Position numbers and translations under genes: made by a program. A stretch of DNA of 64,000 nt, from contig JAQTLL010000001.1 of the NCBI GenBank assembly GCA_028714915.1, forward strand, positions 186,001 to 250,000, given 5' to 3'. Numbering within the stretch: position 1 is the stretch's first letter; each line of letters opens with the position of its first letter. This document shows positions 42,155-45,203 of the stretch, piece by piece. The DNA is from Sulfuricurvum sp. GTDB lineage: Bacteria > Campylobacterota > Campylobacteria > Campylobacterales > Sulfurimonadaceae. The notes beneath the pieces are model-generated. The model was not told the DNA's origin. It did no database searches and saw nothing but the letters and a program-made list of their open reading frames with translations.

Positions 42155-42200
42155 GCGAAGATGGGTTTAATAAAAGAAATTAGAAGGAAATATTAGGGGG

Positions 42201-42254
42201 GCCGAGGGAAAAACCCTTGGCGCTGCTCAATTGAGCAGAGGTGTAAAAATACAC
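42201..42254 (+). other. Row of three stem-loops antisense to the 19-codon ORF end
   Basis: On the plus strand GCCGAGGG/CCCTTGGC (42201-42221), CTGCTC/GAGCAG (42224-42239) and GTGTA/TACAC (42241-42254) are consecutive hairpins. The first pairs fully on the plus strand, with one G-U, but has an A-C mismatch on the minus strand, so a plus-strand RNA may be the functional molecule. A possible promoter is TTGTCG (42141-42146), spacer, TTTAAT (42166-42171). Confidence 0.4.
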
Positions 42255-42286
42255 ATAAGCAAAAGCGCGAGCATAAGCTTATCCAT
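42227..42286 (-). CDS. 19-residue hydrophobic leucine-rich peptide (toxin-like small ORF)
   Basis: ATG at 42286 encodes MDKLMLALLLMCIFTPLLN, then TGA. GGGGG (42293-42297) lies 6 nt before the start, an excellent ribosome site. Seven of 19 residues are Leu and a short hydrophobic helix is predicted. Size and composition resemble Ibs-type type I toxins of enteric bacteria, without sequence identity. The start codon and ribosome site lie inside the inverted-repeat structure at 42267-42398. A leader peptide is another option, but alaS has its own promoter and leuA lies upstream, so no target gene for attenuation is obvious. Confidence 0.5.
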   Translation of the reverse strand: MDKLMLALLLMCIFTPLLN

Positions 42287-42398
42287 AAGAAACCCCCTTT
42301 CATGCATTCTTTGGAGGGTAAAAAAAAAGGCCGAAGGGTAATTAATCCTCCGACCTTAATTCTACCGCTCCATTGAACGCATGAAAAGTTATGCTCGC
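42267..42398. repeat. Long imperfect inverted repeat enclosing a terminator hairpin
   Basis: The right arm 42363-42398 is continuous. Its outer 10 nt (TTATGCTCGC) pair perfectly with 42267-42276 (GCGAGCATAA), and its inner 26 nt pair with 42296-42320 at about 22 positions. The 19 nt between the two left blocks (42277-42295) are bulged out and hold the start codon and most of the G-run of the small ORF. The loop contains the hairpin at 42327-42357. Confidence 0.7.
42320..42398 (-). ncRNA. Candidate small RNA of about 80 nt upstream of the toxin-like ORF
   Basis: Minus strand. It starts near 42398-42401 after an extended -10 promoter and ends in an 11-bp hairpin (AAGGTCGGAGG and CCTTCGGCCTT, two G-T wobbles) followed by nine T (42320-42328). 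The 36 nt before the hairpin are complementary to the ribosome site and codons 4-7 of the 19-codon ORF. This is the layout of an antisense small RNA: seed, then terminator. The same hairpin could also simply end leuA transcripts. Confidence 0.45.
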
Positions 42399-42404
42399 AC
42401 TAAA

Positions 42405-42410
42405 ATTATA
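42405..42410 (-). promoter_or_regulatory. Extended -10 promoter of the candidate small RNA
   Basis: TGGTATAAT on the minus strand, a consensus extended -10, just behind the leuA stop codon. Predicted transcription start is 42398-42401, where the complementary arm begins. Confidence 0.5.
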
Positions 42411-42426
42411 CCACAAAACTAGAATA

Positions 42427-44094
42427 TTACGAAAACGCCCGATTCAAAGCACTAAACATCGCCTTGATCGACGCAACGGTAATATCATTATCGCACCCGA
42501 CACCAAAAAAATTCTGTCCATTTTCAGTCTGAATCTCGATATACGCAACGGCTTCGGCACTGGAAAGTTCTCCGCGTGAATGCTCGCTGTACGAAAGAAT
42601 CTTAAAATTATGTGAATACTCTACCATCAAAGCATTTTTACATGCATCGATCGGACCGTTCCCCTGCCCTTGCGAGCGAATTGTCTTGCCGTTATGGGTA
42701 TATTCTAAGACACATTTGGCAGAGTGCTCTTTGGCGCTCTCTGAAATCACCGAATAATCGACAAACTCGATGTCATGCGGTTCACCGAAATAAGTCTTCT
42801 CAAAAATATCCAAAATCTCTTGGGCGGAAAGTTCGCGTCCTGCTCCGTCGGTAACCTGCTGAACGATTTTCCCGATTTCAGGATGCATTTTTTTCGGCAA
42901 CGAGTAGCCGAATTTATCTTCGAGGACGTAGGCTACTCCACCCTTGCCCGACTGGGAGTTGATACGGATAATCCCCTCATAATTTCTCCCTACATCCGCA
43001 GGATCGATTGGGAGATACGGCACTTCCCAAAATGCGTCTTCTTTGCCCCGCTGATATTCCATCCCTTTTTTGATCGCATCTTGGTGTGAACCTGAAAATG
43101 CCGTATAGACCAACTCTCCAACATACGGATGACGCTCATGGGTTTTCATGTCGGTACACTCTTCGACAATACGGACCACTGTTTCCAAATCGCTAAAATC
43201 AAGCTCAGGATCAACCCCTTGGGTATACATATTAAGCGCCAACGTGATGATGTCCACATTTCCTGTCCGCTCGCCATTGGAAAGCAGCGTCCCCTCAACA
43301 CGATCCGCTCCCGCGAGCAATGCCAACTCCGTCGCCGCAACCGATGTTCCCCGGTCATTATGGGTATGGGTCGAAATCAACACGTGCTCACGGTTAGTCA
43401 AATGTCGGCTCATCCACTCGATCTGATCGGCATAGACGTTTGGCGTTGCCATCTCTACCGTTGCGGGAAGATTGATAATCACCTTACGATCCGCACTAAT
43501 CTCCCAACGATCAGTTACGGCGTTACAGATACGGGCCGCATATTCCAACTCCGTCCCCGTAAAACTCTCCGGTGAATACTCCAGGGCAATCTCGCCGTCA
43601 TGTTTAAGGGCGCGCGCTTTGACCATATCCACCCCTTCAAGAGCCAATGTGATAATCTCATCCTGCTCTTTTCCAAAGACGATTTTACGCTGTGCCGTAG
43701 AGGTAGAGTTATAGAGGTGCACAATCGCTTTTTTAACCCCCGCCAACGCTTCAAATGTTTTGTCGATCAAATGTTCCCGTGCTTGGACAAGAACCTGAAC
43801 GGTTACATCATCAGGAATTAAATTTTGCTCCACAAGAGTACGTAAAAAATCAAACTCGACTTTAGAGGCAGAGGGAAACCCCACCTCGATCGTTTTAAAT
43901 CCGAGGCGCAGCAAGAGGGAGAAGAGAGAGAGTTTTTGATCCAAATTCATCGGGGTGATCAACGCTTGGTTTCCGTCACGAAGATCGACACTGCACCAGA
44001 TTGGGGCGCGCGTGATGGTTTTGGTCGGCCAAATACGGTTTGGCAAATCAACTTGAGGATAAGGGCGGTATTTGCCTGTGGACATGTTTTTCAT
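42427..44094 (-). CDS. leuA: 2-isopropylmalate synthase, long (yeast/Corynebacterium) type
   Basis: The 555-residue enzyme condenses acetyl-CoA and 2-ketoisovalerate in leucine synthesis. It has the catalytic SVDLRDGNQAL, the metal motif HTHNDRGTSVA and a C-terminal regulatory LeuA domain that binds leucine. I chose ATG at 44094 with AAGGAAA upstream; the frame extends 47 codons further up but through the promoter. It is the class known as LeuA2 or TIGR00970-type, unlike the E. coli enzyme. The rest of the leu genes are elsewhere. Confidence 0.93.
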   Translation of the reverse strand: MKNMSTGKYRPYPQVDLPNRIWPTKTITRAPIWCSVDLRDGNQALITPMNLDQKLSLFSLLLRLGFKTIEVGFPSASKVEFDFLRTLVEQNLIPDDVTVQVLVQAREHLIDKTFEALAGVKKAIVHLYNSTSTAQRKIVFGKEQDEIITLALEGVDMVKARALKHDGEIALEYSPESFTGTELEYAARICNAVTDRWEISADRKVIINLPATVEMATPNVYADQIEWMSRHLTNREHVLISTHTHNDRGTSVAATELALLAGADRVEGTLLSNGERTGNVDIITLALNMYTQGVDPELDFSDLETVVRIVEECTDMKTHERHPYVGELVYTAFSGSHQDAIKKGMEYQRGKEDAFWEVPYLPIDPADVGRNYEGIIRINSQSGKGGVAYVLEDKFGYSLPKKMHPEIGKIVQQVTDGAGRELSAQEILDIFEKTYFGEPHDIEFVDYSVISESAKEHSAKCVLEYTHNGKTIRSQGQGNGPIDACKNALMVEYSHNFKILSYSEHSRGELSSAEAVAYIEIQTENGQNFFGVGCDNDITVASIKAMFSALNRAFS

Positions 44095-44254: not shown

Positions 44255-44716
44255 ATGAAACGTAGCGCGTTTACCCTTATCGAATTGATCTTTACGATCG
44301 TTATCATCGGTGTTTTAGCAGCCGTTGCAGTACCAAAGTTCAAAAATTTGAAGCAAAATGCTGAAGTAAAAGCAGTTATTAAAAATACGGTTGATACGGG
44401 CAGTGGTGCTGTAAGTGCAGCGGTCAATAAAAGCGATTTGGATGAGAATACTTCATACGAATTAAAAGATATAGTTGACTTGAGCGGTAAGGGATGGACG
44501 TATACATCGGGTGCAAATGCGGGCTCATATACTTATATAACAACAACGGGTACGGTATCGACAATTACTTTTGATCGTGCTGCTCGTACCGTATATTACG
44601 GTATTGATTGTGATAATTTTGCTGATGCATCAGGTACTAGTAAAGCCTTATGTTTAAAAGATTTGAATGTATCATCTATCAGCGGTGTAGATTTTAATAA
44701 AACCATTAGCTATTAA
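44255..44716 (+). CDS. Type IV pilin, likely major MSHA-type pilin
   Basis: The 153-residue prepilin has the leader MKRSA, then FTLIELIFTIVIIGVLAAVAVPKF, with Glu5. A cysteine pair near the C-terminus (GIDCDNF and KALCLKD) frames a D-loop as in type IVa major pilins. AGGAG precedes the start. It is the first gene of the MSHA locus and 7 nt before a second pilin. Best candidate for MshA, but which of the two forms the fibre is not shown by the sequence. Confidence 0.8.
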   Translation: MKRSAFTLIELIFTIVIIGVLAAVAVPKFKNLKQNAEVKAVIKNTVDTGSGAVSAAVNKSDLDENTSYELKDIVDLSGKGWTYTSGANAGSYTYITTTGTVSTITFDRAARTVYYGIDCDNFADASGTSKALCLKDLNVSSISGVDFNKTISY

Positions 44717-44723
44717 TCGATAA

Positions 44724-45203
44724 ATGAAACGCTCAACTCATTCAGGTTTTACCCTCATTGAGCTGATCTTCGTTATCGTCATCATCGGGGTTCTCTCGGC
44801 GGTGGCAATCCCCAAATTTGCCAACCTCACTGACAACTCCAAAATCGCTTCCGAGCTTGCTACCGCTTCATCAGTCCAAAGTGCACTTGATGCCATTCAC
44901 GGTGAATGGATCACCAATACCTGTGCTTTTGATTGGGGAAACGGACAAAATACCGCTACAAATCCCTTGAATGCTACCGGTTATCCCACAGCCCTTGGGG
45001 CAAGCAACGCCACTCCGCTCAATTACATCCTCAAAAATACGGAAAATGGGGATTGGGTACAGGTTGGAACTAAATATTACGGTCCCGCGACGAAAAACGG
45101 AACAAGCACCAAAAACCGCAATATCGCCAATAAGCCAGAGGGGGATGATTATTGGGATTATAATGCAACGGCAGGAACGTTTATCCTTCACGACACGCCG
45201 TAA
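44724..45203 (+). CDS. Type IV pilin-like protein of the MSHA locus
   Basis: The 159-residue prepilin has the leader MKRSTHSG, then FTLIELIFVIVIIGVLSAVAIPKF. It has a single Cys, many Asn, Thr and Gly, and no disulfide loop, so it differs from the pilin upstream. It may be a second major or a minor pilin (MshA/MshB type). Confidence 0.78.
   Translation: MKRSTHSGFTLIELIFVIVIIGVLSAVAIPKFANLTDNSKIASELATASSVQSALDAIHGEWITNTCAFDWGNGQNTATNPLNATGYPTALGASNATPLNYILKNTENGDWVQVGTKYYGPATKNGTSTKNRNIANKPEGDDYWDYNATAGTFILHDTP

Follow-up and report, generated by a model that had tools for sequence, protein, structure and literature searches.

A putative type I-like toxin-antitoxin unit of Sulfuricurvum and other Campylobacterota with its candidate RNA antitoxin encoded upstream on the toxin strand

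The stretch of DNA analysed here (the window) comprises 64,000 nucleotides (nt) of Sulfuricurvum sp., positions 186,001 to 250,000 of contig JAQTLL010000001.1. It contains a 206-nt unit (42401-42196) that lies on the minus strand between two genes which we take, from their protein sequences, to be leuA (end 42427) and alaS (start 42117). All of its parts are on the minus strand, in the order (5' to 3') extended -10 element, complementary arm, hairpin followed by nine T (T9), second arm, GGGGG, 19-codon open reading frame (ORF), stop-codon hairpin, 3' hairpin and C run. An initial annotation had placed here, on one strand, an upstream promoter, a complementary RNA, an 11-base-pair (bp) hairpin with nine T and a 19-codon ORF with seven leucines, its ATG preceded at 6 nt by GGGGG; all of these were found, at the coordinates listed below. 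For comparison, 94 copies were taken as intact, 83 from the Sulfurimonadaceae (the first 27 being from Sulfuricurvum) and 11 from other families, and the counts in the list refer to these sets.

42405..42413, minus strand: extended -10 promoter element TGGTATAAT, read from the sequence; exact TATAAT in 74 of 94 copies
42320..42401, minus strand: predicted antitoxin RNA of ~80 nt (5' arm, terminator hairpin, T9); all three parts conserved, and kept in nine toxin-less copies
42389..42401, minus strand: 5' arm, helix 1; partner is codons 4-8 (ORF nt 11-23); all 27 Sulfuricurvum copies form it, with 7-14 bp
42375..42388, minus strand: 5' arm, helix 2; partner is the Shine-Dalgarno (SD) region 42309-42296; variable part plus conserved anti-SD, with copy-specific compensatory changes
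42362..42372, minus strand: constant core TGGAG.GGTAG; partner is the CTCCA/TACC arm 42321-42312; near-invariant in 27 copies, two pairs covary
42327..42357, minus strand: 11-bp terminator hairpin (42357-42347 with 42337-42327), seen in the sequence and with a covarying stem
42320..42328, minus strand: terminator T run, T9; its length is exactly nine in all 83 intact Sulfurimonadaceae copies
42293..42297, minus strand: SD GGGGG, 6 nt before ATG; the GGGAG-type variants of other copies have a 3'-end match
42227..42286, minus strand: ORF MDKLMLALLLMCIFTPLLN, 19 residues, seven Leu; predicted membrane peptide, putative toxin
42255..42282, minus strand: in-ORF hairpin ATAAGC/GCTTAT with the helix-1 target exposed in its loop, from consensus folding of the message by itself; covariation at one closing pair (CG/AU/UA)
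42241..42254, minus strand: in-ORF hairpin GTGTA-TTTT-TACAC; most other copies have GTGCA/TGCAC, so the window copy has changed on both sides
42223..42238, minus strand: stop-codon hairpin CTGCTC-AATT-GAGCAG, in the window fold; covarying pairs in the consensus fold
42196..42221, minus strand: 3' hairpin then C run, the 3' anti-SD and predicted fold-back lock on the SD; 91 of 94 copies have an SD complement of 5 nt or more

The complementarity of the window copy begins at 42401 and comprises 13 bp (42401-42389) with ORF nt 11-23, 14 bp (42388-42375) with the SD region, the TGGAG/CTCCA match and five further pairs. It had been described as one 36-nt stretch; the complementarity itself is borne out, but it is divided into two helices and a constant core and is longer than was stated. 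The predicted energy of the arm duplex is -51.3 kcal/mol, compared with -34.0 kcal/mol for the best of 3000 random, identically spaced segment pairs from the window (0/3000 as low). Because the unit is conserved across genomes, as judged from its sequence, chance complementarity is untenable as an explanation. Its location between leuA and alaS could suggest a leader or attenuator of one of these genes, or a chance hairpin. This is scarcely credible: no random segment pair was as stable, other copies have other neighbours, and of 80 alaS loci (eight with fewer than 400 bases of upstream sequence) a single one has an upstream unit, which is toxin-less. A leuA/alaS leader was rejected on this dispersal of the copies.

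Two further copies, 77-78% identical over ~220 nt, are present on another contig of the same genome. At E < 1e-4, blastn found the unit in 20 of 37 genomes of the genus (own genome included) and in none of 23 genomes of other families, in three of which covariance models nevertheless found units. The first covariance model (R1) placed it in 20 of 41 Sulfuricurvum genomes and blastn in 22 of the 41, the blastn total being 51 of 200 Sulfurimonadaceae genomes and seven of 18 genera. Across the order R1 was positive in 20 and a second model (R2) in 21 of 398 genomes, each in six of 87 genera and four families, and R2 in nine of 298 genomes of a phylum sample; R2 was built from R1 matches, so the two are dependent, and the stricter filters of these large searches lose weak matches. 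In a set of 30 genomes seven carried the unit, namely Sulfuricurvum LH_M14 and SulCav_FS06, four Sulfurimonas (one a metagenome-assembled genome (MAG) of S. crateris) and Hydrogenimonas sp. MAG 80. The unit recurs in sulfur-oxidising bacteria: beyond Sulfuricurvum it reaches Sulfurimonas, Hydrogenimonas and two other families. The ORF, SD and pairing are kept across genomes, conservation in close relatives being one of the two points on which the initial annotation had let its proposal stand or fall. No unit match was obtained in plasmids or phages, and viral contigs gave none to one ORF motif that was sought in its exact form.

The blastn search of Sulfuricurvum gave 41 matches at E < 1e-4, of which 39 remained above a later threshold (L072 and L076 fell below it). 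Of these, 27 were taken as intact, nine have promoter, arm and terminator without a usable ORF, and three are other fragments; an SD, start codon and ORF without the leader occurred in 0/39. This one-sided decay fits an ORF that would be harmful without its leader, with the leader acting in cis or in trans. In the wider genomes 77 places were scored; 10 of these lacked an ORF of 14-24 residues and are not counted among the 94. The resulting 56 further family copies include five from two more Sulfuricurvum genomes (L182-L186).

Several arrangements of these copies were seen in passing. At the leuA-alaS site of another genome of the Sulfuricurvum group (L079 2317-2417, also L066) promoter, arm and terminator are left and the half of the unit with the ORF is gone. 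Eleven spacers upstream of alaS (L077-L081, L084, L086, L087, L089, L093, L096) are strongly divergent and hold apparently unrelated inserts, as if this were an insertion hot spot. Two tandem units ~170 bases apart are present in one Sulfurimonadaceae locus (L199 348-491 and 660-798); among tandem-type arrangements at L224 and L178 are an intact unit beside a broken one, in another Sulfurimonadaceae genome, and a Hydrogenimonas-group unit directly preceded by an additional terminator-like hairpin.

The pairing between the arms was then compared among copies. In the 27 Sulfuricurvum copies helix 2 was aligned without gaps from fixed anchors; own partners were 96.1% paired as against 60.0% for permuted partners (maximum 72.9%, 0/10,000; nine variable columns, 23 distinct arm pairs), the low score in this register of one copy (L059) being due to an offset of one base. 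The mean duplex energy is -41.5 kcal/mol for cognate and -21.8 kcal/mol for non-cognate arms, and, ties allowed, the cognate partner is the best for 27/27 RNAs and 26/27 messages. Helix 1, formed by the 5' end with ORF nt 11-21, is present as 7-14 bp in all 27 copies (permutation 0/10,000), and by itself makes the own partner the best for 22/27 RNAs and 19/27 messages. Since helix 1 includes codons 4-7, the peptide changes along with the arms. Counted on an alignment of the same copies, 96.6% of pairs are standard, against 84.0% when shuffled and at most 59.0% in slid registers; the covariation exceeds 500 shuffles and the slid registers in pairing percentage, double-changed cells and score, and two weaker measures are reached by 4 and 5 of the 500 shuffles.

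A similar result was obtained with 15 units of other families, alike in layout and hardly in sequence: 90.8% pairing against 65.4% shuffled (500 shuffles) and at most 53.0% in slid registers, with 31 of 37 pairs changed on both sides, in an alignment fitted to the structure, which favours the pairing figures. In the wider set the own message is the best partner for 85 of 94 RNAs. The search for compensatory changes in other Campylobacterota that had been suggested at the outset has found units in Sulfuricurvum, Sulfurimonas, Hydrogenimonas and further families, with arms that covary. The copy-specific compensatory changes, the dispersed multi-copy distribution and the conserved architecture together support the type I toxin-antitoxin-like reading proposed earlier, as far as sequence comparison can do so.

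A generic promoter and terminator scan reported neither this promoter nor this terminator; therefore both rest on conservation. Of the 74 copies with an exact TATAAT, 47 carry TG two bases ahead of it. In the terminator, T9 is present in 83/83 intact family copies and in 8/14 copies with a missing or broken ORF (Fisher 3e-6, uncorrected for relatedness), with a doubtful second match (L234) left out of the comparison. Outside the Sulfurimonadaceae the run is of 7 to 9 T. Because homopolymers change easily, the constancy of T9 suggests that termination may be tuned. The terminator loops of L054, L052, L060, L057 and L068 are partly palindromic, some being GGTTCGAAACC or similar and others TTAATTA or TTGATCA; those of the GGTTCGAAACC type resemble a tRNA T-arm.

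The peptide has 19 residues in 83/83 Sulfurimonadaceae copies and 14-22 in the 11 copies from other families (19 in six), although these lengths were partly chosen, since ORFs were accepted at exactly 19 residues in the first 27 copies and at 14-24 in the rest. Mean hydropathy of residues 4-18 is 2.75 over the 94 peptides, and the 11 other-family copies likewise have hydrophobic peptides at the same place. For codons 2-19 the ratio of nonsynonymous to synonymous substitution (dN/dS) has a median of 0.29 (27 copies; 338 usable pairs out of 351), and for codons 4-9, the site of helix 1, one of 0.51 (259 pairs); RNA structure can bias such values. The other two frames contain stops in 140 of 166 family frame-copies. 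The ORF looks to be selected as a peptide. Three of the peptides, 20-22 residues long, were scanned against Pfam and NCBIfam; the former gave a single match, at E 2.6, and the latter none. In two copies of the Hydrogenimonas group (L172, L176) the arms are kept and the toxin start is seemingly disabled, by a stop right after ATG in one and by ATA for ATG in the other; the ORF of L172 is doubtful and was counted among the 94.

Dispersed copies with differing neighbouring ORFs could also be expected of a selfish DNA repeat with an incidental ORF, its hairpin acting as DNA in the manner of folded-DNA recombination sites. This is most improbable, as T9, SD, start codon, 19-codon frame and stop are all kept, dN/dS is 0.29 and the SD matches the 3' end. 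Alternatively, the RNA control could be as proposed here and the peptide a benign small membrane protein rather than a toxin, its likeness to known type I toxins being limited to size and hydrophobicity. We think this unlikely: the SD is predicted to be doubly locked, the distribution is sporadic and multi-copy, and no ORF copy in 39 lacks the leader while nine have the RNA part without a usable ORF.

The second lock would be formed by the 3' end of the message. In the consensus fold of the message alone the helix-1 target lies in a hairpin loop, followed by the second in-ORF hairpin and the stop-codon hairpin, and the SD is paired with the 3' end. The predicted accessibility of the SD (means of 27 copies) is 0.03 in the message alone (~97% occluded), 0.35 when the last 14 nt are removed and 0.24 in the read-through RNA. 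A perfect SD complement of at least 5 bases occurs within 62 bases after the stop in 91/94 copies (83/83 in the family, 8/11 outside), against 34% of shuffled tails. The partner specificity of this match is seen by permutation in the 56 further family copies (0/5000) and in the 11 outside copies (2/5000). Thus the message may lock its own SD through its 3' end, if these predicted folds are formed. Leader and 3' end would occupy the same SD bases, so that one lock excludes the other, yet both are conserved. A 3' lock is useful only for a message without the leader, which favours a message that also exists leader-free.

These two locks bear upon whether the short RNA acts in trans; the initial annotation had named both a trans-acting RNA and a self-folding read-through RNA as alternatives. 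If control were in cis only, the arms would act within one self-folding read-through RNA that hides the SD, and the short RNA would be a by-product. The arms do flank the terminator on one strand, the last T of T9 also take part in the pairing, and for the window copy the fold predicted for the read-through RNA has an energy of -92.2 kcal/mol. On the other hand, arm pairing leaves the terminator hairpin intact, so that there is no attenuation switch; the 3'-end lock excludes the leader lock and yet both are conserved, implying leader-free messages; and arm and terminator are kept in the nine toxin-less copies. Cis-only control is accordingly improbable in our view, and a trans-acting terminated RNA is favoured because the two exclusive SD locks are both conserved and the 3' lock would serve only a leader-free message.

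It is therefore likely, on our assessment of the sequence comparisons, that the unit is a type I-like toxin-antitoxin system in which toxin and RNA antitoxin belong to one transcription unit, the antitoxin being its terminated 5' product, in a type III gene order. From a single promoter, most transcripts would end at T9 to give the ~80-nt antitoxin RNA with a partly open 5' tail, and a minority would read through into the ORF. The 5' tail of the antitoxin would pair, within its own message, with codons 4-8 in their loop and with the SD, as the compensatory changes suggest, so that translation is blocked. A leader-free message, arising from processing or from an unrecognised start site, would be held off by its own 3' anti-SD, and 3' trimming would then be needed for its translation, as is the case for hok and aapA. 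Because a conserved second promoter was not found, such a message most likely comes from processing of the read-through RNA. Translation would give a membrane-inserting peptide of 19 residues, toxic or growth-arresting if unrepressed. The pairing sequence would be private to each copy, so that an antitoxin fits chiefly the message of its own unit. In the predicted fold of the antitoxin RNA the 5' tail is only partly open, with a mean unpaired probability of 0.58 over 26 nt.

A number of observations weigh against this model. The origin of the translatable message is its weakest part: there is no conserved second promoter for a leader-free message (TATAAT with at most one mismatch lies between leader and SD in 30/94 copies, against 51/94 after one shuffle each), and the window copy has one weak promoter-like site within the leader. 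This site (42387-42359) was the only one reported on the minus strand by the generic scan, with 9/12 matches and 0.9 expected by chance on both strands. No conserved T run is found within 12 bases past the 3' C run. The 3' match to the SD is missing from 3/11 outside copies, and its partner specificity is non-significant in the 27 Sulfuricurvum copies (579/5000), a set with very little variation in the SD. For the read-through RNA of the window copy a self-lock is predicted, at -92.2 kcal/mol compared with -23.6 and -41.1 kcal/mol for its parts. One other frame is also open in 9/11 outside copies, and for 9/94 RNAs a non-cognate partner is slightly better. Further, the permutation and shuffle controls leave relatedness through common descent in. 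Copies at the same site help a little in this respect, on sequence evidence: at a shared locus (L045/L056) the flank is 91%, the ORF tail 95% and arm 1 only 73% identical, and both copies keep cognate pairing (-41.6 and -36.2 kcal/mol). This is, however, the only one of four candidate same-locus pairs with changed arms in a clearly shared flank; the arms of L061/L063 are identical, and the flanks of the two other pairs are just 62% and 67% identical.

Known families were also considered. A known RNA family was rejected, there being no Rfam match at gathering score in the window; matches of a permissive search were all far below gathering (the best, at E 5.4e-6, scored 42 bits where 95 are required), and 7 of the 13 were to microRNA models, which favour long hairpins. 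The Ibs_toxin family was likewise rejected: profile PF13956 matched in 5/11 genomes at E up to 10 and in 0/11 over the cut-off, with 1/14 controls over it. As to the toxin-less RNAs, one (G029) pairs strongly with a toxin message of its genome (L049, -37.7 kcal/mol); a general role as orphan antitoxins is unsupported, because the other same-genome pairings, in genomes that offered a toxin for comparison, lie between -15.5 and -28.5 kcal/mol.

Elsewhere in the window, two tandem ORFs on the plus strand (44255-45203), starting MKRSAFTLIELIF and MKRSTHSGFTLIELIF, are presumably type IV pilin- or pseudopilin-like, a motif-based assignment.

Helicobacter pylori belongs to the same phylum as the hosts of the unit. 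The aapA/IsoA systems of H. pylori are multi-copy, with a small hydrophobic peptide, an SD locked by a 5'-3' interaction, 3' trimming and, for IsoA3, an 80-nt RNA (PMC6733600, PMC8322730). The unit is likewise multi-copy, with a small hydrophobic peptide and a predicted RNA of ~80 nt, and resembles them in the SD lock by the 3' end of the message (91/94 copies by sequence, predicted folds of 27), a likeness shared with hok as mentioned in PMC6733600. It differs in that AapA1 and AapA3 have 30 residues and an antisense RNA on the opposite strand (PMC6733600, PMC8322730), whereas here the complementary RNA is upstream on the same strand; an additional antisense gene was not searched for systematically. 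With Ibs/Sib of Escherichia coli, where IbsC is a 19-residue hydrophobic peptide, MG1655 has five copies and Sib contacts the coding sequence and translation start (PMC4147584, PMC8309996), the unit shares the peptide length and hydrophobicity, the presence in several copies and, by prediction, the two contact domains. Sib, however, is encoded opposite ibs because it overlaps the entire ibs coding region; the unit has no PF13956 match over cut-off, and its window no Rfam family at gathering score. In tisB/istR-1, shoB/ohsC, zor/orz and dinQ/agrB (PMC4147584) the RNA gene also adjoins, rather than opposes, that of a small hydrophobic toxin, but these pairs are divergent and pair in the 5' untranslated region outside the initiation site, while the unit has one strand, one recognisable promoter and predicted pairing on the SD and codons.

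The gene order is instead that of type III ToxIN, in which antitoxin RNA, Rho-independent terminator and toxin are cotranscribed and ~90% of toxIN transcripts stop at the terminator (PMC4147584); the putative antitoxin RNA, the terminator and the putative toxin likewise lie on one strand in the 94 copies. ToxI consists of tandem repeats and binds a toxin that is a large protein (PMC4147584), whereas the unit has no tandem repeats (42190-42450), its RNA complements the message and its product has 19 residues. By the type I rule as worded in 2025, the antitoxin has its own promoter on the opposite strand (PMC12390103); the unit, on one strand with one conserved promoter-like element, departs from this rule, and agrees with type I in its predicted complementary antitoxin (copy-specific pairing) and small hydrophobic peptide. 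The unit is therefore built in a type III-like manner and would work in a type I-like one, and it lacks or leaves open a defining feature of each family named. No description of such an arrangement was found in the literature searched, with many subscription papers and the contents of T1TAdb outside its scope, and no described type I system for Sulfuricurvum or Sulfurimonas; Hydrogenimonas was not searched for.

On balance we lean towards regarding these units as a family of RNA antitoxins made as attenuated 5' products, with type I pairing in type III order, in at least four Campylobacterota families; each copy would have a private code shared by the antitoxin and toxin codons 4-7, so that the peptide diversifies as the RNA code does. 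Gene arrangement is among the criteria by which RNA-antitoxin systems are classified, antisense or divergent in type I, in tandem and with a terminator in type III, and this family would cross that line. It would escape searches for type I antitoxins that consider the opposite strand only, as described in PMC12390103. Where a genome has several copies, their jointly diversified arms provide a natural data set on the insulation among RNA addiction modules, and the peptide would evolve under a double constraint, that of membrane insertion and that of base pairing.
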